Position numbers and translations under genes: made by a program
Notes under the pieces: model-generated
What the model was told of the DNA's origin: nothing
Database searches by the model: none
The model's input: the letters and a program-made list of their open reading frames with translations, nothing else
Shown: one piece after another, positions 26,220-48,190 of the stretch
Layout: every line of letters begins with the position of its first letter
Numbering within the stretch: the stretch's first letter is position 1
Assembly (NCBI GenBank): GCA_025361565.1
Contig: JANYKN010000140.1
Location: 62,001-126,000, forward strand
DNA from: Bacteroidota bacterium
Lineage (GTDB): Bacteria > Bacteroidota > Bacteroidia > Bacteroidales > NBLH01
Direction of reading: 5' to 3'
DNA: 64,000 nucleotides

Positions 26220-28664
26220 TTAATTCAATTCTGCTTTTTCAACAGGCAATTCCACTGTAAAACTGGTACCTTTACCCATTTCGCTTTCAAAAGTAATTGT
26301 TCCATTATGCTTATCAACAATCTGTTTTACAATATACAAACCCAGCCCACTACCTTCGCCTGCAGGTTTGGTGGTGAAAAAGGCATCGAAAATGCGATCT
26401 TTTATTTCAGGTGGGATTCCTTTGCCAGTGTCGGTTATCGATACACGTAGAGATGCACGGCCGTGCATCTCTACGTGTATCGATAAATCGCCCTTCCCAT
26501 CCATTGCCTGAATTGCATTGTGTATCAAATTAGTCCAAACCTGGTTTAATTCATCGGGATAACATAAAATTTGCGGTATTTCTTGAAATTCTTTGTGCAG
26601 TATAATCCCATGCTTTAATTGGTTCTGATAAAGGATTAATACGGTTTCCAAACCATCCACAATATTAGCTGCCACCATACTTTGTTCATTCCCATAACGG
26701 GCGTAATTTTTTAGTGCAAACACCACTTTTGCAGCACGATCTACAGCCATTTTAATATTCTTGCTGTTTTTTATCAACATGGAAAGATGGTACAAGGCAT
26801 GCATTGTTTGCGGTTTAAATAATGAATGATATTCTTCAATTTCATTATAAATACCCATATCTACCAGTATATCGGCAAAATCATCGGCTTCGGCAATTCC
26901 TTTTTCTTCAAGCTGGCTGGCTATTTTTCTACGGAATTCACGCTCTTCCTTTGATGTCATAATATTATTACTTACAGAACTTCTGTTTATTAGTTCCATA
27001 AATAATTTAAGCTCAATATCTGATAATGATTTTACCAGTTCGGGCAATAACTTAATAGTATGCTGTGTGCTATCAGTTATTGTGTTGACAGAAGCATTTA
27101 TCGCGCCAAGCGGAGTGTTTATTTCATGAGCAATTCCAGCAATTAATTGACCAAGCGAAGCCATTTTTTCTGATTGGATTAATTCAGCCTGGGTCAGTTT
27201 TAGGTGTTCAAGAGTGGAATGGAGTTCTTCTTTTTGTGCTGTGAGTTCTTCTTTACTTTGCTGCAATATTTCGTTTTGTGCCAAAATTTCTTCCTGCTTT
27301 TGAATTAATTCATGATTTTTAAGTTCAATGTTTTTTTTATGTTCGTTTATCTCATCCTGGCTTTTTATAAGCAGCTTATTGTCTTTTTGCTTTAATATAT
27401 AAGCTCTTGTGGTGATAATGAGCAAAACCAAAATAAAAACTACGCCAATGGTCACAAAAAAAATATAACTTTGCTGCTCACGAAGTTCATTTTTCGTTTT
27501 TGCCATAATCAAATCATTTATTTCCTCCTTCTGACGCAGGTCAGATAATTCCTTTTCATTTTCACCTATAGCTTTTATGGCCTCCTTTTGCGATAATTCA
27601 TGAATAACAATTTTTTCCTGGTCAGAATTCAATTTGTTTATCAATGCATTGATACATGTATTTTCAGTTAGATAAGCCATGTTTTCGAAATATGCCAGAT
27701 TTGAAAGTATGTTGATTAAAACTATGTCGGCAAAATATTTTTCTTCCCAGTTGTATCGTGGATTATGAGTTTTGGTTTCGAGTCCGATTCCAATATTCGA
27801 AACGGTTAGATTTTCAAGAGCAAGAATATATTTAATATTATCGACATATTTGTTTATTTGCTCCTTTAATTCCAAAGCACAATAAGGTGTTTTAACAGGA
27901 TTACTAAATGGATCGTCGCCTAATAGAAGCTTAGTTGCTTCACTATAACTTTCCTTATCAGGTAATCTGAAAAATCCGCTGCTGTCTATTTTTTTTCGGT
28001 CCCAATTGGTAGTTGCTTCCAATAACCTGTATCTAAATTCTTTAATATAATTATGCAAAGAATCGCTTGCTTCTTTTGTTCTAGTCAATGATTTTATTAC
28101 AGAGCTATTTACGTACTTGCCAGATAATTTAAAGGTGGTTTCGTAAATGGAATTGTTTGCTGCCTTTAGGCCGCTGTTAATTGTCCTGTAATTTTCTTCC
28201 TGTATAGCAAAAGAATTGACAACACCTGGATTTACCATATTTAATGCCATCCATCCAAAATTCACCAGAACGAAAATGGTAACTACGATATCGTTTATGA
28301 GTACTGATTCATAGATTTTTTCTTTTTTACGCTTAATAAAATACAAAACCAGCAAAACGATAAAAAGAATATAAGTTGTGTTTATAAAAATATCAGCACC
28401 AGGCCAATGCATCATTTTAAAAAAGTGAGCGCTGAAACCAAAAAACAACAAGATAAATCGCACTAGAATATAAATCTTTCCCCAAATTTTTTTGTAGATT
28501 CTCCAATCGCTTATTAACTGAATAGGTAAATAAAACAAGTTAAAAGAAATTATGCTTATAAGAAATGCTATAACAGCACCATCAAAGCTATAATATTTAA
28601 GAACACTGCCAATAATCAGTAAAATTGCAGCTAAAATCCCAAAAAATCGTTCAAGTTTTTTCAT
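26220..28664 (-). CDS. Membrane sensor histidine kinase with DHp insert (kinase A)
   Basis: 814 residues. Five membrane helices fill residues 1-145, a periplasmic or loop region runs to about 410, and a last helix (FFVTIGVVFILVLLII) lies near 412-432. A long coiled coil leads to the DHp domain with phosphoacceptor His in AGIAHEINTPLGAINAS. About 110 residues separate the two DHp helices; they include the segment EEKGIAEADDFADILVDMG. The ATPase domain has N box LIHNAIQAMDGKG, G1 DTGKGIPPEI and G2 GSGLGLYIVKQIVDKH. A 52-bp perfect palindrome (26435-26486) lies in frame between N box and G1. The C-terminal 400 residues are closely related to kinase B at 30222. The upstream REC and REC-phosphatase genes are the likely partners. 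Confidence 0.92.
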   Translation of the reverse strand: MKKLERFFGILAAILLIIGSVLKYYSFDGAVIAFLISIISFNLFYLPIQLISDWRIYKKIWGKIYILVRFILLFFGFSAHFFKMMHWPGADIFINTTYILFIVLLVLYFIKRKKEKIYESVLINDIVVTIFVLVNFGWMALNMVNPGVVNSFAIQEENYRTINSGLKAANNSIYETTFKLSGKYVNSSVIKSLTRTKEASDSLHNYIKEFRYRLLEATTNWDRKKIDSSGFFRLPDKESYSEATKLLLGDDPFSNPVKTPYCALELKEQINKYVDNIKYILALENLTVSNIGIGLETKTHNPRYNWEEKYFADIVLINILSNLAYFENMAYLTENTCINALINKLNSDQEKIVIHELSQKEAIKAIGENEKELSDLRQKEEINDLIMAKTKNELREQQSYIFFVTIGVVFILVLLIITTRAYILKQKDNKLLIKSQDEINEHKKNIELKNHELIQKQEEILAQNEILQQSKEELTAQKEELHSTLEHLKLTQAELIQSEKMASLGQLIAGIAHEINTPLGAINASVNTITDSTQHTIKLLPELVKSLSDIELKLFMELINRSSVSNNIMTSKEEREFRRKIASQLEEKGIAEADDFADILVDMGIYNEIEEYHSLFKPQTMHALYHLSMLIKNSKNIKMAVDRAAKVVFALKNYARYGNEQSMVAANIVDGLETVLILYQNQLKHGIILHKEFQEIPQILCYPDELNQVWTNLIHNAIQAMDGKGDLSIHVEMHGRASLRVSITDTGKGIPPEIKDRIFDAFFTTKPAGEGSGLGLYIVKQIVDKHNGTITFESEMGKGTSFTVELPVEKAELN
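26435..26486. repeat. 52-bp perfect palindrome inside kinase A
   Basis: The axis is between 26460 and 26461; each 26-nt arm contains CACGTAGAGATGCACGG or its complement. It is read in frame and encodes part of a loop (HVEMHGRAS) plus flanking strand residues of the ATPase domain. It resembles REP-like palindromes dispersed in Bacteroidota and cyanobacteria. Confidence 0.9.
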
Positions 28665-28690
28665 TTGTCAATAGAGATGAATGTTTAAGG

Positions 28691-28723
28691 CAAAACTAAA
28701 TTAGGCAAATTTATATATAGCAA
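28691..28723 (-). promoter_or_regulatory. Candidate promoter of kinase A
   Basis: On the minus strand TTG (28723-28721) is followed after 22 nt by TAGTTTTG (28698-28691), an exact TAnnTTTG. The leader to the ATG at 28664 would be about 22 nt. A second -7-like box lies at 28713-28706. Confidence 0.5.
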
Positions 28724-28838
28724 TCATTAGGTAAGATAAATGTAAATTTCAATTGTCAAATTTCTAATTAATCTATATATAATTTTTGAGTAGGTATAAA
28801 ATTAAGAAAGTTTTTGTGATTCAGCGAATTTTAGATAT

Positions 28839-28965
28839 TCATTGCTCTAATTGTAATTCTACATTAACCGTTGTTCCTTTACCCACTTCACTTTTAAAAC
28901 TAATGGTTCCTTTATGTTTATCTAAAATCTGTTTAACAATATGCAACCTAATCCATTATCCTTCA
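28839..28965 (-). pseudogene. Decayed 3' end of a third histidine kinase
   Basis: The minus strand reads HIVKQILDKHKGTISFKSEV, then GKGTTVNVELQLEQ and a stop at 28839. This is the C-terminal end of the same kinase family as genes A and B (LYIVKQIIDKHKGTISFESE). Before it, GAAGG and TGGATTAGG align with the GEGSGLGL codons but contain a stop and two single-base indels. The remnant begins exactly where the AAA ATPase gene ends, so the rest of this kinase has been lost or displaced. Confidence 0.8.
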
Positions 28966-30156
28966 ATATAAAAATCCAAATAACCAAAGTGGAATTTTGT
29001 TTCCATATCCGTATTCCAAATCATCTGCTGCTATAAATGAATCTGGTAAATCCTTTATTTGATTGTAAGATTTGTTTTTGCCTCCTATTTCGAATATAAA
29101 TTTGTTGTTAACCAAAAAATCCCCATTTGGCGAATAATTCACCGTATTTGAATAATTTAGGTGCTGCAGGAAAAATGTTTCGCGTATTGTTCCTGAATTA
29201 GGCTCTGTATTGCTAATTGCAAATAGTTGGTTGGTATTGTTCAAATAAATTTTTTCCGGTTTTTCAAATCTTCTGAATCCTTTATTGGCGGCACCAAGCA
29301 TATATATTAGATTAGCTTTTTGCAGATAATCAAAATATTTCATTACAGAATCCCTTGTAATGGCAACCTTTGAGCTCAATTCGGAAATATTTGGTTTAAA
29401 AGGCACACTTTCAGCTATTAAGAGCAATAATTTTTTAAGCTTCAGAATATGACTGTAATCGATATTTAATACCGAAATTAAATCTGTTTCCAACAATAAA
29501 TTGATTGTCTTTAACAATTGGTTTGAGTAATCGTTTTTAGCTTCTAAATAAAATGGATAAGCTCCGGTTTTTATATATTTTTGATAATAGAATATTGGTT
29601 TAATTTTTTGATTGATTTCTTTTGCAATTTCAGCATGATTATCAAGAATATCAATGATTGAATAAACCGGAAATTCAAACCCGTCTTCAAACAATAGAAA
29701 TTCACGAAATGATAAGGTAGGCAGAACGTAATCTACCGAACGCCTGCTTAAATCTGCATCTCCTTTTTGAATTTCCAGTATCGAAGAACCGGTAAAAATA
29801 ATTTGCAAATCTTTGTAATCATCATAGATATTCTTTATTTCTTTGGACCAATTGGGGTATTTATGCACTTCGTCTAGTGCCAACAATATGCCTCCGTTCT
29901 TAACAAAATCTGCAGCCAGCTCCACCAGGAGGTTGTTCGAAAAATAGATATCGTCTAAACTGATAAAAAGTATTTCATGATTTTGCTTATTCAAATTTTT
30001 TAGATGTTGCAACAGAAGGGTAGTTTTTCCGACACCCCTCGAACCCATAATGGAAATTAAACGGTGGTTCCAGTCTATTTTATCCAATAAAAACCTACTA
30101 TACAAATAATTTGTTTCGCTTATCTTTCGTATTGATTTCTCTATCAGGCTGTTCAT
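28963..30156 (-). CDS. AAA ATPase with DUF4143-type C-terminus
   Basis: 397 residues. Walker A is GSRGVGKTTLLLQHL (about residues 37-51), Walker B is ILLALDEVHKYPNW, and sensor 1 is IIFTGSSI. A winged-helix-like part follows (ITRDSVMKYFDYLQKANLIYML), then a DUF4143/PD-(D/E)XK-like end with KFIFEIGGK. This is the widespread 'ATP-binding protein, DUF4143' family, often mobile and with no settled function. The gene is bounded on one side by a kinase fragment and on the other by kinase B, with a 20-bp palindrome over its promoter, which suggests insertion as a self-regulated unit. Confidence 0.88.
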   Translation of the reverse strand: MNSLIEKSIRKISETNYLYSRFLLDKIDWNHRLISIMGSRGVGKTTLLLQHLKNLNKQNHEILFISLDDIYFSNNLLVELAADFVKNGGILLALDEVHKYPNWSKEIKNIYDDYKDLQIIFTGSSILEIQKGDADLSRRSVDYVLPTLSFREFLLFEDGFEFPVYSIIDILDNHAEIAKEINQKIKPIFYYQKYIKTGAYPFYLEAKNDYSNQLLKTINLLLETDLISVLNIDYSHILKLKKLLLLIAESVPFKPNISELSSKVAITRDSVMKYFDYLQKANLIYMLGAANKGFRRFEKPEKIYLNNTNQLFAISNTEPNSGTIRETFFLQHLNYSNTVNYSPNGDFLVNNKFIFEIGGKNKSYNQIKDLPDSFIAADDLEYGYGNKIPLWLFGFLY

Positions 30157-30160
30157 AATA

Positions 30161-30206
30161 TTGTATTATTAATAATACAAATTTAGTCATATTTTGCATT
30201 ATACAA
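30161..30206 (-). promoter_or_regulatory. Candidate promoter and operator of the AAA ATPase
   Basis: The minus strand has TTG (30206-30204), 18 nt, then TAAATTTG (30185-30178). A perfect 20-bp palindrome, TTGTATTATTAATAATACAA (30161-30180), overlaps the -7 box and expected transcription start, just ahead of the ATG at 30156. The position suits an operator for a dimeric repressor. Confidence 0.5.
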
Positions 30207-30221
30207 TAGTCAAACATATAT

Positions 30222-33200
30222 TTAATTATTCATAGGCAATTCCACAATAAATGTAGTCCCTTTCCCCACCTCACTTTCAAAAGAAATTGTTCCTTTATGC
30301 TTATCTATAATCTGTTTTACAATGTATAATCCTAATCCACTGCCTTCGCCGGCCGGTTTGGTAGTGAAAAAGGCATCGAAGATTCTATCCTTTATTTCAG
30401 CTAGGATTCCCTTTCCTGTATCACTTATGCGCACTTCCAAACCCCAAAGGTTTTGAAAACCTTTGGGGTTTTTTAATACGGAAATAATTAATTCACCTTT
30501 TCCATCCATCGCTTGTATGGCATTGTGTATCAGATTTGTCCAAACCTGGTTCAGTTCATCGGGGTAGCAAAGAATTGCCGGAACTTCTTCATATTCTTTA
30601 TGCAGGTTAATTCCATGCTTTAACTGGTTTTGATAAAGCGTTAAAACCGTTTCCAAACCATCAACAATATTAGTTTCAACCATGGCCTGTTCATTGCCAT
30701 AGCGCGCGTAGTTTTTAAGTGCAAAAACTACTTTTGAAGCCCTGTCGACAGCCATTTTTATGTTTTTGCTGTTTTTTATCTGCATCGACAGGTGATAGGC
30801 GGCCTTCATTGTAAGGGGTTTTAATAAAGGCAAATAGCTTTCAAATCCATCATAAATTCCCATATCAACCAGTATATCAGCAAAATCATCGGCTTCAGCA
30901 ATGCCTTTTTCTTCTAACTGGCTTGTTATTTTTCTGCGGACTTCGCGTTCTTCTTTCGATGATAATGAATTGTTATTTTTTGCGCTTCGGTTTACCAGTT
31001 CCATAAACAATTTCAGTTCTTTATCAGATAAAGATTTAACAAGGTCGGGCAATAATTTGATACTTTGCTTTGTACTATCAGTAATGGTGTTAATTGAAGC
31101 ATTTATCGCGCCAAGCGGCGTATTGATTTCATGTGCAATTCCGGCAATCAGTTGACCCAGTGAAGCCATTTTTTCAGACTGGATCAATTCGGCCTGGGTG
31201 AGTTTCAGGTGTTCGAGGGTTGAATTAATCTCTTCTTTTTGGTTGTTAACCACATCTATTGTTACCTTTAATTCTTCATTGGTCTGGTTTAGCTGATGGG
31301 TACGCTCTTCCACTTTTTGCTCAAGCTTTTCTTTCTCGACTTTAATTTTGCTAATTCTCCATCGAATGAATGCAGCAATTGCTAGTAAGATTATCATAGA
31401 TACGCTTATTCTAAACCACCATATTTGCCAGAAAGGAGGATTAATGGTTACTTTTATTGAAGCACCGGTATCATTCCACACACCATCATTATCGCATGCT
31501 TTAACCCTAAAAACATATTTTCCCGGGGGTAATCCGGAATATTTAGCTGAACGTTCTGTACCACAATTAATCCATTCTTTGTCATGGTTTTGAAGCATGT
31601 AAGCATACTGGTTTTTAAACGCATTTTTATAGTTGAGTGCAACAAAATCAAAAGAAAAAACATTTTCTTTATAATCCAAAACGATTTCTTTTGTTTCATA
31701 AATTGGTTTTTCAACAAAAACCCTATTGTGGAATTTATAAAAAGCAGTGATTAAAACTGGTGGAGGATTTGTATTTTCCATAATTAGCCAGGGCCTGATA
31801 ATGTTGAAACCATAAGAACCTCCAAAATACAATTCACCTTCTTTTGACCTGAAACAAATACCAAGTTCATCACTCCCTTGAAATCCATCATTTTTATCAA
31901 AGTTTTTTACAATCACTTTTAAATCACTGCCTTTGATTGATTTTGTTCCTTTCGAATAGGTTTTTGTAAAAGTCAGCTTCGAAATTCCTTTCCTGTTGCT
32001 CACCCAAAGATTTCCCTGTTCATCATCGATTATTTCATTTATGGTATGATCTGCAAGGCCCTGATTTTCATCAATCAATAAAAAACCATCTATTTCAGGA
32101 ACATACAAATTCAATCCCAGATTGGTACCTATCCATATCCTATCCTGCATATCTTTGTATAGATTAATTACTTCGTTACAGGCCAGGCTGTATGGATTAT
32201 TCGGTTCATGTTTATAGTTTGTTACCTTATATTTTTTATTTATAATAATCTCTTCCATCTTACTGGTTGAAGAAGCTTTAGGGAATTCATATTTGAAAAC
32301 GCCCAAACCATAATCGCCTGCCCAAACAGCGCCATCTTTATCCACAGCAAAATATAAATTCATGATGTCCTTTGGAATGATTGAATCGTTGCTATTGCAT
32401 TTCAATCGTAAAAACTCATTGGTTTGCAGGTTTAAAAAATTAAGGCCATATTGGGTAAGAACCCATAAAAATCCCTGCGAATCCTCGTAAATTTTAGTGA
32501 CCTGGGCAGGGCCAATACTTTTAGAATTTTCAGGATTGTTTTCAAATGATTGAACAACATGGCCTTTTTTTGTGTCAAATTTATATAGCCCTGATGCCGT
32601 ACCTATCCATAAAAACCGTTTTTTATCTAAATACAGGACATTAATGAAATTATCACCGGCATTTACATGTTTATCTTTTAAATAGAACTTTTCAAAATGC
32701 TTTAATCCGGAAGTATCTGTTTTCATCCTGTATAAACCTGATGCAGCACCAATCCATATATTTTCCTTGTCCTGACTAAAACAAAGTACTAAATTGCGCA
32801 GTGGCGTATAATTATCACCAAATTGTGAATCAAAAGAATCAAAAGCATTTCCAAATGCTGAAAGCATACTCACTCCTCCCCCATAATCAATAAATGATAT
32901 TCCACTGTTTTTACCACTATATGCGAATCTGACTTGAAAATTAAGCAAACTGTAAGGTCTAGCCTGATTTTGCCTGTAAAGATTAAGGGAATGGGTATTG
33001 GAATTAAAAACGGCTATTTTTCTATCAGGGTCTGTAAGCATCCAGAATTTTCCCTCATTATAATTCACTGTCCAGAAAGAAAATGTAAAGTTGAAATCGT
33101 AGGTTGTAAAATCATAACTTTTATAATTGTATTTTGATATTCCTCTGTGACCAGTAATCCAAAAATCACCTGAATTATCAATAAAACCATTGTAAGGGCG

Positions 33201-34073
33201 TTGAATTGGGCTTCCTGCTTTGTTTTTAGAATAATAGTAATGCCTGAATATTCCTTTTTCGGGATTCGTTAATATGCTTATTACATCCTCGCGTGAATAT
33301 ATAATCCATAAATTTCCATTTTTGTCAGGTTTAATTGATAATATGTAATTGTCTCTGATGCTGTTGGAATCTAAAGTATTTACTTTATAGCTAATAAATG
33401 AAGCCCGGGCATGATCGTATTTCATTAATCCTTTACCCCAGGTAGCAAGCCAGATATCTCCATTTTTATCTTCATAAAAATTATTCCTGAAATAATAATT
33501 TTTAAAAAATTCAGCGAATTCACTCCATGTATTGAGACTATCTTTTTTACAATCTGTGAATTGCTTTGTTTTTGGGTTAAATAAAAAAAGACCACTATTG
33601 GCAAATACCCACAAAATACCTTTGCTATCCTGCTTAAGGCTCCAGATTTGATTATCTTCGCTACCAGGATCTTTTCTATTTGGAAGGTAATTTGTAAAGG
33701 TTTCGCTTGCAGCATTAAATTTGCTGAATCCTTTATTGGTGCAAGCCCATATTGTTCCGTCCTTATCGAGGAAAATATCTCTTATTCTATCGTTTGCTAT
33801 GGAAATGGTATCGTCTATTTTTGGTCTAAACCATTTAAAGGAATATCCATCATAGCGGTTTAATCCAAATTCAGTACCTATCCAGACAAAACCCTGCCAA
33901 TCCTCCACCATACATGTTGGAAGATTTGATGAAAGTCCAGCTTTTGTGTCCAGTCTGTTAAATCTGAGATCATCTTCGCTTAAAATAGGCTTTAGCTTAA
34001 TCTGTGCAGAAATATTTAGGTTTGTAGCAGAAAATATTGTGGCTATAAGAATTGAAACCAATAGTTTATTCAT
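30222..34073 (-). CDS. Beta-propeller/Y_Y_Y sensor histidine kinase (kinase B)
   Basis: 1283 residues. Signal peptide MNKLLVSILIATIFSATNLN, then about 750 residues of two-component propeller repeats (DWQGFVWIGTEFGLNRYDG and similar; typical W-I/V-G-T-x-x-G-L-x-R/K-Y). A Y_Y_Y domain (about 795-870, YSGLPPGKYVFRVKACDNDG) and a membrane helix (near 885-903) follow, then a coiled coil, DHp (AGIAHEINTPLGAINAS) and ATPase (DTGKGI, GSGLGLYIVKQI). Unlike hybrid regulators with this sensor, it has no REC or AraC output. The DHp and ATPase parts, including a ~110-residue insert, match kinase A closely. A palindrome (30439-30471) lies in frame in the same loop as in kinase A. Periplasmic sensing of glycans is common in the propeller family, but no glycan genes are nearby. 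Confidence 0.93.
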   Translation of the reverse strand: MNKLLVSILIATIFSATNLNISAQIKLKPILSEDDLRFNRLDTKAGLSSNLPTCMVEDWQGFVWIGTEFGLNRYDGYSFKWFRPKIDDTISIANDRIRDIFLDKDGTIWACTNKGFSKFNAASETFTNYLPNRKDPGSEDNQIWSLKQDSKGILWVFANSGLFLFNPKTKQFTDCKKDSLNTWSEFAEFFKNYYFRNNFYEDKNGDIWLATWGKGLMKYDHARASFISYKVNTLDSNSIRDNYILSIKPDKNGNLWIIYSREDVISILTNPEKGIFRHYYYSKNKAGSPIQRPYNGFIDNSGDFWITGHRGISKYNYKSYDFTTYDFNFTFSFWTVNYNEGKFWMLTDPDRKIAVFNSNTHSLNLYRQNQARPYSLLNFQVRFAYSGKNSGISFIDYGGGVSMLSAFGNAFDSFDSQFGDNYTPLRNLVLCFSQDKENIWIGAASGLYRMKTDTSGLKHFEKFYLKDKHVNAGDNFINVLYLDKKRFLWIGTASGLYKFDTKKGHVVQSFENNPENSKSIGPAQVTKIYEDSQGFLWVLTQYGLNFLNLQTNEFLRLKCNSNDSIIPKDIMNLYFAVDKDGAVWAGDYGLGVFKYEFPKASSTSKMEEIIINKKYKVTNYKHEPNNPYSLACNEVINLYKDMQDRIWIGTNLGLNLYVPEIDGFLLIDENQGLADHTINEIIDDEQGNLWVSNRKGISKLTFTKTYSKGTKSIKGSDLKVIVKNFDKNDGFQGSDELGICFRSKEGELYFGGSYGFNIIRPWLIMENTNPPPVLITAFYKFHNRVFVEKPIYETKEIVLDYKENVFSFDFVALNYKNAFKNQYAYMLQNHDKEWINCGTERSAKYSGLPPGKYVFRVKACDNDGVWNDTGASIKVTINPPFWQIWWFRISVSMIILLAIAAFIRWRISKIKVEKEKLEQKVEERTHQLNQTNEELKVTIDVVNNQKEEINSTLEHLKLTQAELIQSEKMASLGQLIAGIAHEINTPLGAINASINTITDSTKQSIKLLPDLVKSLSDKELKLFMELVNRSAKNNNSLSSKEEREVRRKITSQLEEKGIAEADDFADILVDMGIYDGFESYLPLLKPLTMKAAYHLSMQIKNSKNIKMAVDRASKVVFALKNYARYGNEQAMVETNIVDGLETVLTLYQNQLKHGINLHKEYEEVPAILCYPDELNQVWTNLIHNAIQAMDGKGELIISVLKNPKGFQNLWGLEVRISDTGKGILAEIKDRIFDAFFTTKPAGEGSGLGLYIVKQIIDKHKGTISFESEVGKGTTFIVELPMNN
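30439..30471. repeat. 33-bp palindrome inside kinase B
   Basis: Sixteen-base arms around a single central base (30455); the inner part reads CCCCAAAGGTTTT on one side and its complement on the other. It is read in frame as KNPKGFQNLWGL within the ATPase domain, between N box and G1. Its sequence is unrelated to the palindrome in kinase A. Confidence 0.9.
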
Positions 34074-43902: not shown

Positions 43903-45468
43903 TTATTCTACTTTTACGAAATCCAAATCCTGAAAATCGTAACTAAAATCCGTTAACGGCGAAAATGCTTTCATTTTTATGGATGATGGTTTTCCTTCAT
44001 AATCCAGTCCAAACATTACAAAAGCATCGGCGTCGAAACTCCGGTCGTTCCATTTTACTACAAATGTATTTCCTTTATAATAAAACATTTCACCAGAAAG
44101 GCGTGGAGATCGGATGGAATTAAAAATAAGTTTCCCGTTTTCAAGTTTTATAGTAACGTTTCCCAACCAATTATCATGATAAGTGCCAACAAATTGGTTC
44201 AAATCGAGAACTGTTGGATTTTTTTGCTGTTCTGAAACTTTATTCCAAACATCGGTAACTATTTTTTCAGCATCGGTATTGGAAGTGTTCATCCTGTCGC
44301 TGTTTTCTTTTATTCTGTCAATACCTTTTACACCCAAATAACTATCCTTAATTTGATTGGTAATTGATGTAAATGCCGCACCGGATTGTTGATTAGTCAA
44401 TACAATAATCCCCAATTGCAGTTCCGGGATTAAAGTAATCTGAGTAACAATTCCGGTCAGCCCACCGGTATGCGAAGCTTGTTTGTAACCCTTAACATCG
44501 CTCAAAAACCAGCCCAAACCATATGCTCCAAAATGGGTGTTGTATGAATTTGTGCCTCTTATTGGAAGAATAGTTTGTGGTGTCCACATTTCATCACTTG
44601 CATCGGTACTAAATATTTGTTGCTTAAGGCCTTCGCCATATTTTCCGTGGTTCATTTGCAAAATAACCCATCTGCTCAAGTCGTTTATACTTGAATAAAT
44701 TCCTCCGGCTGCATTTCCATAGTCCAATATATCGCGGCCAACAACCTGAATTTTACCGTTTATAGGCACATGCGCATCAATCACATTCGAAAAATCTTTT
44801 AATCTTTTGTAACTGGCTGCACTATTGTTCATTTGCAAAGGTTTCATAATTCTGGTTTCAACAAATTCTTCCCATGACACGCCTGAAACCCTTGCTATAA
44901 TTTCGCCTGCAACAATAAAAAGTAAATTATCATAATCAAATTTGGTCCTAAATGCCGAAACAGGTTTTAAATATCTCAGATTATAGATGATATCTTTAAG
45001 CGTAAAAGTATTCGAATCGGGCCAGAACATCAAATCACCTGCACCAAGACCTAAACCGCTCCTGTGAGTCATCAAATCTTTGATGGTAAATTCTTCGGTA
45101 ACATACGAATTGTACATTCTGAATTCAGGAATATAATCAATCACTTTATCGTTCCAATTAACTTTGCCTTCATCAACCAAAATGCCCATGGCCGCAGCTG
45201 TAAAAGCTTTACTGTTAGAAGCTATTCCAAACAAAGTGTTTCCATCCACTTTCTTTTTTGTATTGAGCGATGAAACGCCATATCCTTTTGAATGAATCAC
45301 TTTACCATCTTTAACCACACAAACAGCTATTCCAGGAACATCGAAGGTTTTTAAAGTCCGTTCAACCAGCACATCAATTTCTTTTGAGCTGATGGCTTGT
45401 GCATAAGCGGTTAAGTTGCTTACTAAAATAATGCTAATTAAAAGCAATGTTAATTTAAACTGTTTCAT
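43903..45468 (-). CDS. Exported serine hydrolase, beta-lactamase/PBP4* type with DUF3471
   Basis: 521 residues from the ATG at 45468 (MKQFKLTLLLISIILVSNLT). A longer in-frame start at 45555 would translate a dispersed repeat and is rejected. The penicillin-recognising fold has SNSK (SxxK nucleophile), YDN (YxN) and HTGG (KTG equivalent). The C-terminal ~110 residues (FVGTYHDNWLGNVTIKLENG) form a DUF3471-like beta domain. Family members are esterases, D-amino-peptidases or carboxypeptidases acting in the periplasm; true beta-lactamase activity is not implied. It is monocistronic, preceded by a REP-like inverted repeat. Confidence 0.9.
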   Translation of the reverse strand: MKQFKLTLLLISIILVSNLTAYAQAISSKEIDVLVERTLKTFDVPGIAVCVVKDGKVIHSKGYGVSSLNTKKKVDGNTLFGIASNSKAFTAAAMGILVDEGKVNWNDKVIDYIPEFRMYNSYVTEEFTIKDLMTHRSGLGLGAGDLMFWPDSNTFTLKDIIYNLRYLKPVSAFRTKFDYDNLLFIVAGEIIARVSGVSWEEFVETRIMKPLQMNNSAASYKRLKDFSNVIDAHVPINGKIQVVGRDILDYGNAAGGIYSSINDLSRWVILQMNHGKYGEGLKQQIFSTDASDEMWTPQTILPIRGTNSYNTHFGAYGLGWFLSDVKGYKQASHTGGLTGIVTQITLIPELQLGIIVLTNQQSGAAFTSITNQIKDSYLGVKGIDRIKENSDRMNTSNTDAEKIVTDVWNKVSEQQKNPTVLDLNQFVGTYHDNWLGNVTIKLENGKLIFNSIRSPRLSGEMFYYKGNTFVVKWNDRSFDADAFVMFGLDYEGKPSSIKMKAFSPLTDFSYDFQDLDFVKVE

Positions 45469-45523
45469 ATTAAATATTTTTGATTTAAGATTTGATTTAT
45501 AATGATTCAATGTCGTTAAGTTT

Positions 45524-45596
45524 GGAAAAAACACTTCGACAAGCTCAGTGTCCACCCTTTAGTTACTGATCGTTGAGCTTGTCGAAACGTTTTTCC
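45524..45596. repeat. REP-like inverted repeat upstream of the serine hydrolase
   Basis: Arms TTCGACAAGCTCA (45535-45547) and TGAGCTTGTCGAA (45574-45586) are perfect inverses. The flanks GGAAAAA and TTTTTCC extend the symmetry. The CTTCGACAAGCTCAGTG word is a familiar dispersed repeat in Bacteroidota genomes. It lies 56 nt upstream of the start codon and may fold in the transcript or simply be a passive repeat. Confidence 0.75.
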
Positions 45597-48135: not shown

Positions 48136-48190
48136 GACGCTGATTTTTATAATAATTAATATTATTTATAAAAATCAGCGTCATTTTTTA
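48136..48190 (+). terminator. Strong terminator after the SDFEK-repeat gene
   Basis: A 17-bp perfect stem: GACGCTGATTTTTATAA (48136-48152) with its complement (48166-48182), then ATTTTTT. It lies 48 nt after the stop at 48088. Confidence 0.85.

Follow-up and report, generated by a model that had tools for sequence, protein, structure and literature searches.

Rickettsia palindromic elements (RPE) are palindromes that have been turned into protein sequence in unrelated genes. The kinase palindromes described here are alike in mode of insertion and belong to another phylum, and the two are compared by this mode alone, with no sequence relation claimed. For REPs linked to transposases, the available text of PMC6006769 describes TnpA_REP subclass 2.4 (RAYT group 4), abundant in Cyanobacteria and Bacteroidetes, with “double foot” REPs that carry GT[AG]G 5' and C[TC]AC 3' of the stem-loop; some of these REPs lie in frame inside the tnpA_REP gene, between the HuH and Y motifs, and the Y motif is tabulated as YIxNNP. 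Intragenic in-frame GTAG/CGTC REPs are reported from several species in the available text of PMC3733652 (Di Nocera et al. 2013), together with different REPs at about one recB site in X. campestris and X. oryzae. Besides, coding palindromes with arms of up to 284 bp, for which template switching was proposed, are described for Nematomorpha mitochondria in what is available of PMC6649704.

Here, we describe two palindromes, A and B, in two paralogous histidine kinases. Like the subclass 2.4 double-foot REPs (PMC6006769, available text), palindrome A has GTAG/CTAC feet, a stem-loop and a genome-mate copy in a tnpA_REP-like gene, but it sits in a histidine kinase and is palindromic for 12 nt beyond both feet. 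As with the intragenic GTAG/CGTC REPs, coding genes contain the elements in frame; unlike in the available text of PMC3733652, which stresses genes of DNA synthesis and repair, two palindrome families occupy one kinase loop. The outer arms of A resemble the nematomorph coding palindromes in being perfectly complementary and in encoding plausible protein strands, while those palindromes have arms of up to 284 bp and no repeat family is named at their core in the available text of PMC6649704. Intragenic in-frame REPs are already known, and the new points are the host family, a site occupied repeatedly by two families, and arms that are extended. We also searched the literature for REPs of Bacteroidetes that are intragenic or linked to RAYTs and for REPs in histidine kinases, and the case was not found in the titles and abstracts; subscription journals are thinly covered by this search, which is weak evidence of absence.

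Two palindromes in paralogous histidine kinases

The window, i.e. the whole 64-kb stretch of DNA that was analysed, comes from a genome of 6.76 Mb in 199 contigs, most likely that of a member of the Bacteroidales. The features of the locus are:

26220-28664, minus strand: kinase A, an 814-aa sensor histidine kinase (open reading frame)
26435-26446: 12-nt outer arm of palindrome A (side of hairpin strand RVSIT)
26447-26474: GTAG...CTAC core of palindrome A, 28 nt, double-foot REP-like, translated in kinase A to VEMHGRASL with one base left over
26475-26486: 12-nt outer arm of palindrome A (side of hairpin strand LSIH)
28842-28964, minus strand: C-terminus remnant of a third kinase with a stop inside (tblastn, 72% identity to kinase B over 39 aa)
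28963-30156, minus strand: AAA_14 / DUF4143 ATPase gene between kinases A and B (domain match)
30222-34073, minus strand: kinase B, a 1283-aa two-component propeller / histidine kinase (open reading frame)
30439-30471: palindrome B, AGGT-family element, translated as NPKGFQNLWGL

The HATPase_c domain is matched with 103 bits in kinase A (E=1.3e-29) and 88 bits in kinase B, against a Pfam cut-off of 26. HisKA in kinase A reaches E=2.7e-5, but its 24.5 bits are below the cut-off of 26.9; the Pfam domains matched in kinase B are Reg_prop, Y_Y_Y and HATPase_c. The two kinases are paralogues with 82% identity in the kinase module, and presumably both still work. The C-terminus remnant between them suggests an older tandem kinase array.

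An earlier note on this DNA had claimed a 52-bp perfect palindrome in kinase A and a 33-bp palindrome in kinase B, unrelated in sequence, which both lie between the N box and G1 with the frame kept and would give strong hairpins in the mRNA. All of this agrees with our results. Palindrome A (26435-26486) has arms of 26 nt each (26435-26460 and 26461-26486), 100% complementary with a spacer of 0, and palindrome B (30439-30471) has arms of 16 nt each (30439-30454 and 30456-30471), 100% complementary with a spacer of 1 nt. No other perfect inverted repeat of the 64-kb window combines arms of at least 14 nt with a spacer of at most 8 nt. Both palindromes are in frame between the motifs NAIQAM and DTGKGI of their kinases, which we take to be N box and G1, and are members of two different repeat families. 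The family sequence accounts for 28 of the 52 nt of palindrome A (just over half) and for all of palindrome B, whose element pattern is ACC(N4)AGGTTTT-N-AAAACCT(N4)GGT. Strong hairpins are predicted in the coding region: for 100-nt stretches, the predicted RNA folding is -47 kcal/mol in A and -31.7 kcal/mol in B (z of -7.5 and -4.25), and none of 200 shuffles folded as well.

The loop in homologous kinase modules

Homologues of the 336-aa kinase module were collected from 60 genomes (E<=1e-60), 393 genomes of the order (1e-70) and 395 of the class (1e-110). The named-locus homologues number at least 80, and 19 of the 22 class-level matches without a locus were taken into the set, with three left out. 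The 173 loci gave 157 modules after copies identical over a 200-residue stretch were dropped, and 153 loops, taken as the stretch from QAM to the G1 aspartate, were parsed from them, the other four modules having no parsable motif. Among the matches listed, the nearest named homologue is L099, from a Bacteroidales MAG, and most of the others are cyanobacterial.

It turned out that the loop has 22 aa in 133 of 153 cases. Seven lengths of 12-16 come from the search pattern ending early, and three of these were re-read as 22, 22 and about 38. The best in-loop inverted-repeat scores were 26 for A, 16 for B, and 16 and 14 for two paralogues from one relative, G032, while all others were at most 9, a gap that rules out a chance origin of the loop palindromes. 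Accordingly, 149 of the 153 homologous loops have no palindrome of this kind, so that insert-free orthologues exist among the relatives, as an alignment suggested by the earlier note was meant to reveal; an empty-site strain of the same species was not found in the homologue collection. A scan of all 157 whole modules (perfect arms of at least 10 nt, spacer of at most 12) gave six palindromes: those of A, B and the two G032 paralogues have arms of 14-26 nt and are all in the loop, and the other two (in L257 and L263) are outside it with arms of 10 and 11 nt.

The loop of kinase B has 28 aa. The net insertion that the earlier note had implied fails for A, the loop of which has 23 aa, one residue more than the usual 22, and seven palindrome-free loops are likewise 23 aa long. 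Therefore, a pure net insertion is ruled out here, and palindrome A replaces loop sequence more than it adds to it.

The GTAG family and RAYT-like genes

The core of palindrome A is a double-foot element, with GTAG at the 5' end, CTAC at the 3' end and a perfect stem between them. The family pattern GTAGAGAYG..CRTCTCTAC was found in 22 of 60 genomes including its own, and the reversed-pattern control gave 0. The number of intact copies is two in the own genome and goes up to 44 in a relative (G053). Decayed copies in the own genome are at C149 (L062:17386 and 17416) and in a methylase gene on C106. A genome-wide count, which the earlier note had proposed for both palindromes, thus has a divided outcome: both families are dispersed in the own genome and in relatives, but the exact A core is unique in its genome at up to three mismatches and only its family recurs.

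The second intact GTAG copy of the own genome is in frame inside a RAYT-like gene of 195 aa (C149:174164-174751). Its protein has the motifs NHVH, WQ and YIQTNP, with the element between the HuH and Y motifs, and it matches NF047646 with 57.7 bits (E=1.1e-15, cut-off 80) and has no Pfam match; it was placed in subclass 2.4 by motifs, not by a tree. Eight ORFs from eight relatives combine an in-frame GTAG element with RAYT-type motifs (L206, L207, L211, L215, L216, L217, L221 and L222), all assigned by motif, with L206 and L207 also covered by the NCBIfam scan; L215 and L216 are from same-genus genomes. Against NF047646, the scores of the RAYT-like proteins are 52-63 bits, below the curated cut-off of 80, and of L067, L305, L318 and L207, scanned with Pfam, L305 alone matched Y1_Tnp. 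The own genome has ten Y1_Tnp loci, and neither a GTAG nor an AGGT element was found within 1.5 kb to either side of them; the flanks of 18 Y1_Tnp loci from six relatives had no GTAG element. On the whole, the search for RAYT/REP transposase genes was successful, as RAYT-like genes were found and, for each family, some copies are located in or beside them; movement of the elements was presumably driven by RAYTs.

The AGGT family

Palindrome B ends with AAACC/GGTTT or AGACC/GGTCT and has no GTAG foot, so it was rejected as a REP of the GTAG-tagged superfamily, the terminal GTAG-type tag being absent. The pattern ACC(4)AGGTTTTNAAAACCT(4)GGT is found in 13 of 60 genomes, with five copies in the own genome and up to 21 in others, and the control gave 0. 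The 29-nt core of B recurs on C106 of its own genome. In G053, a RAYT-like gene of 194 aa has two AGGT elements near its ends, at distances of 10 and 19 bp, and in G045, three surround a RAYT-like gene of 195 aa, the nearest being 28 and 8 bp from its ends. An AGGT element flanks one of the 18 Y1_Tnp loci of the six relatives and none of the ten own loci, so the link between AGGT elements and RAYTs comes from the two cases in G053 and G045; no cognate AGGT-type RAYT was found around the ten own Y1_Tnp loci (1.5 kb each side). Besides, a short ORF in G032 that resembles the start of a RAYT-like gene (FYHIYNRG; L309 6069-6347) contains an AGGT element in frame.

Recurrence of the elements in the loop

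L099, the nearest homologue apart from A and B (61% identical), contains a decayed GTAG element: its loop matches the element at 22 of 28 bases exactly at the offset of A, against 18 of 28 for the best remaining loop and 19 of 28 for the best of 1176 control windows. This remnant best matches a variant that has three copies in L099's own genome at 2-3 mismatches. For the AGGT type, the two G032 paralogues carry palindromes at the offset of B, and the inserts of B and of both paralogues all begin 35 nt past the QAM codon. The arms of the G032 kinase inserts are of the genome's resident ACCTGACAGGT type; the two palindromes have different centres and share the outer 13 nt of each arm.

A tree of 76 of the 157 modules was built with the loop left out, by a quick method with SH-aLRT support only. 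Kinase A joins B (98) and both join L099 (92), while the G032 pair groups together (99) and then with L184 (99) in a different part of the tree. A single ancestral AGGT insert for B and the G032 pair is disfavoured: the clades are apart with palindrome-free relatives between them, which would require many losses, and the inserts resemble the residents of their own genomes. One ancestral GTAG insert common to A and L099 is possible; their cores differ, and that of L099 matches residents of its own genome. Three insertion events are most likely needed, or four if A and L099 are separate. On this favoured reading, the “independent hits at one site” of the earlier note stand, with AGGT palindromes of G032 at the offset of B and a GTAG remnant of L099 at that of A.

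Two further observations concern these loci. The loop of L184 (G196), the sister of the G032 pair, is about 38 aa by eye count and has no palindrome. A second, different insert, SEVGSQESE, is present in the kinase module of L027 (G032) and is possibly derived from another repeat.

The predicted protein hairpin

A model of the loop had been proposed in the earlier note as well, and AlphaFold models of the modules (30-row alignments, mean pLDDT 85) predict a beta-hairpin in both kinases with the dyad axis of the palindrome at the turn. The predicted strands are 247-256 and 260-267 in kinase A, with the axis in codon 257, and 247-260 and 263-272 in kinase B, with the axis in codon 261, where the axis codons were computed from the coordinates. 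In blocks of ten residues, kinase A has a local pLDDT of 90-95 and kinase B one of 78-80. From knowledge of the fold, we take the hairpin tip to point away from the ATP site.

Outer arms of palindrome A

The 12 nt on each side of the 28-nt core of A are also perfectly complementary, which is partly made easier by TATCGATA in each outer arm, a self-complementary stretch. These arms differ from the flanks of other GTAG copies. Of 68 distinct GTAG copies, 16 have perfect inverted flanks of at least 8 nt beyond the feet, against an expectation of about 0.001 under even base use. Nine of the 16 are from G053, with a common adjoining GGAAT/ATTCC and some a longer flank, so not all are independent; in the first 31 copies, seven had such flanks, from five genomes other than G053, and these flanks varied by copy. 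For AGGT elements, none of 52 copies has an inverted flank of 8 nt or more beyond the core (maximum 7). No direct target-site duplication longer than 4 nt was found beside the 68 GTAG copies. Template switching at the hairpin is the likeliest cause of the outer arms of A, and either arm may be the overwritten one, as both encode plausible hairpin strands.

Other genes with in-frame elements

The own genome has seven intact family copies; two are intergenic, and five are read in frame within genes, namely A, B, the copy inside the RAYT-like gene and a pair within a Type ISP methylase. This in-frame pair, of AGGT type, is in the Type ISP methylase-like ORF L326 2542-5760 (G000:C106), together with a decayed GTAG element (KDAQPCVST). 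In relatives, in-frame AGGT elements occur in the repeats of two SprB proteins, with three elements in the first and one in the second, and in a SpoIIE-type phosphatase, while in-frame GTAG elements occur in one protein of FGE type and one that is HsdM-like; two of these assignments, HsdM-like and the second SprB, were made by eye. The SprB-repeat proteins L324 and L325 (G053) have in-frame AGGT elements in several repeat units, one of them without a change of unit length, and the HsdM-like methylase ORF with its in-frame GTAG element is L206 850-2085 (G045). In ten clear-gene cases including the kinases, AGGT elements are read in one frame, [DN]xxGxxxLxG[LI], and another frame is open in some of them (eye count).

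Origin and retention of the palindromes

We read the observed family membership, positions, frames and recurrence, together with the predicted hairpin, as the probable outcome of two resident REP-type palindrome families inserting in frame at a permissive hairpin tip of the kinase, with the outer arms of A added by a template switch. Resident palindromes of both families would enter the hairpin tip that joins the N-box helix to G1, kinase A receiving a GTAG...CTAC double-foot element of the subclass 2.4-linked type and kinase B an AGGT-family element. A palindrome in frame would be translated into a few residues that lengthen the tip or take its place, with the dyad axis at the turn, and selection would spare insertions at this tip and purge most of those elsewhere. 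Since A adds one residue only, a simple cut-and-paste fails unless flanking codons were lost. A template switch of replication at the hairpin of A then probably copied 12 nt of one flank to the other side, giving the 52-bp perfect palindrome, with the loop length held near the usual one.

The earlier note had suggested that the loop “tolerates, or attracts” REP-like elements. Tolerance is upheld by the recurrent in-frame occupancy; attraction is not, as tolerance explains the same data. A true hot spot, in which an existing hairpin or hairpin-prone loop attracts new REP elements or RAYT cleavage and one element takes the place of another like a cassette, would fit the finding that B, 82% identical to A, has an unrelated element while A and the more distant L099 have the GTAG type, and also that the G032 palindromes differ in the centre and share the outer 13 nt of their arms. 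However, the tolerance of one permissive hairpin tip accounts for these data too, and kinases are not privileged, with similar in-frame elements in Type ISP methylase, SprB repeats, SpoIIE-type, FGE-type and HsdM-like proteins, so we regard a hot spot as unlikely. Origin in place, by which template switching perfected an imperfect inverted repeat of loop codons with no mobile element involved, would agree with outer arms of A that are unlike the flanks of other copies and encode plausible strands on both sides, and the nematomorph mitochondrial coding palindromes offer a precedent with template switching proposed (PMC6649704, available text). It is nevertheless very improbable: the cores match families that are spread over many genomes, with copies in or beside RAYT-like genes, and this family match is strong evidence against it, leaving the idea for the outer arms of A only. 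We give equally little credence to retention for regulation, i.e. to a strong mRNA stem that slows ribosomes or protects the kinase transcript; the folding energies, which no shuffle equalled, and the perfect arms of A speak for it, but most homologous loops (149 of 153) do without a palindrome and the element of L099 is decayed.

Insertion of resident elements at a permissive tip remains our preferred reading, and one extension of it is offered tentatively, as more doubtful than plausible: the hairpin tip may be a docking site where REP families replace one another, DNA hairpins may persist preferentially in protein hairpins because their axis is at the turn, and GTAG elements may extend by flank copying. 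If the docking-site reading is true, selfish palindromes would be a local generator of new hairpin peptides. Two palindrome families are tied to RAYT-like genes in this order, GTAG firmly and AGGT in two cases, and at a single place in a conserved enzyme domain they have repeatedly become protein that is predicted to fold. The locus is therefore a testable case for mobile palindromes that escape purifying selection, and the inverted flanks in 16 of 68 GTAG copies give a handle on how the elements insert or grow.

Other palindromes of the genome

An 861-kb sample of the own genome contains 34 perfect palindromes (arm of at least 12, spacer of at most 10). Five of them are in frames of at least 120 aa: A, B, one AT-rich case and one each in the RAYT-like gene and in an RNase Z-like gene. 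The last of these (L076) was rejected as a REP, as its sequence fits neither family; its residues presumably fit RNase Z itself. A Y1_Tnp locus of the same genome (L020 1279-1311 and 2676-2698, G000:C186) has a further palindrome type, AAAGGCGAAACCTTT..., which is also present at L095:15159 and is perhaps the repeat of the L020 transposase gene. Within the window, an inverted repeat at 45535-45586 (13-nt arms, 26-nt spacer, TTCGACAAGCTCAG) overlaps the called start of the minus-strand ORF 43903-45555 and may be a third REP-like family. Finally, an AT-rich hairpin with 17-nt arms at 48136-48182, between two plus-strand ORFs, is terminator-like or a repeat.
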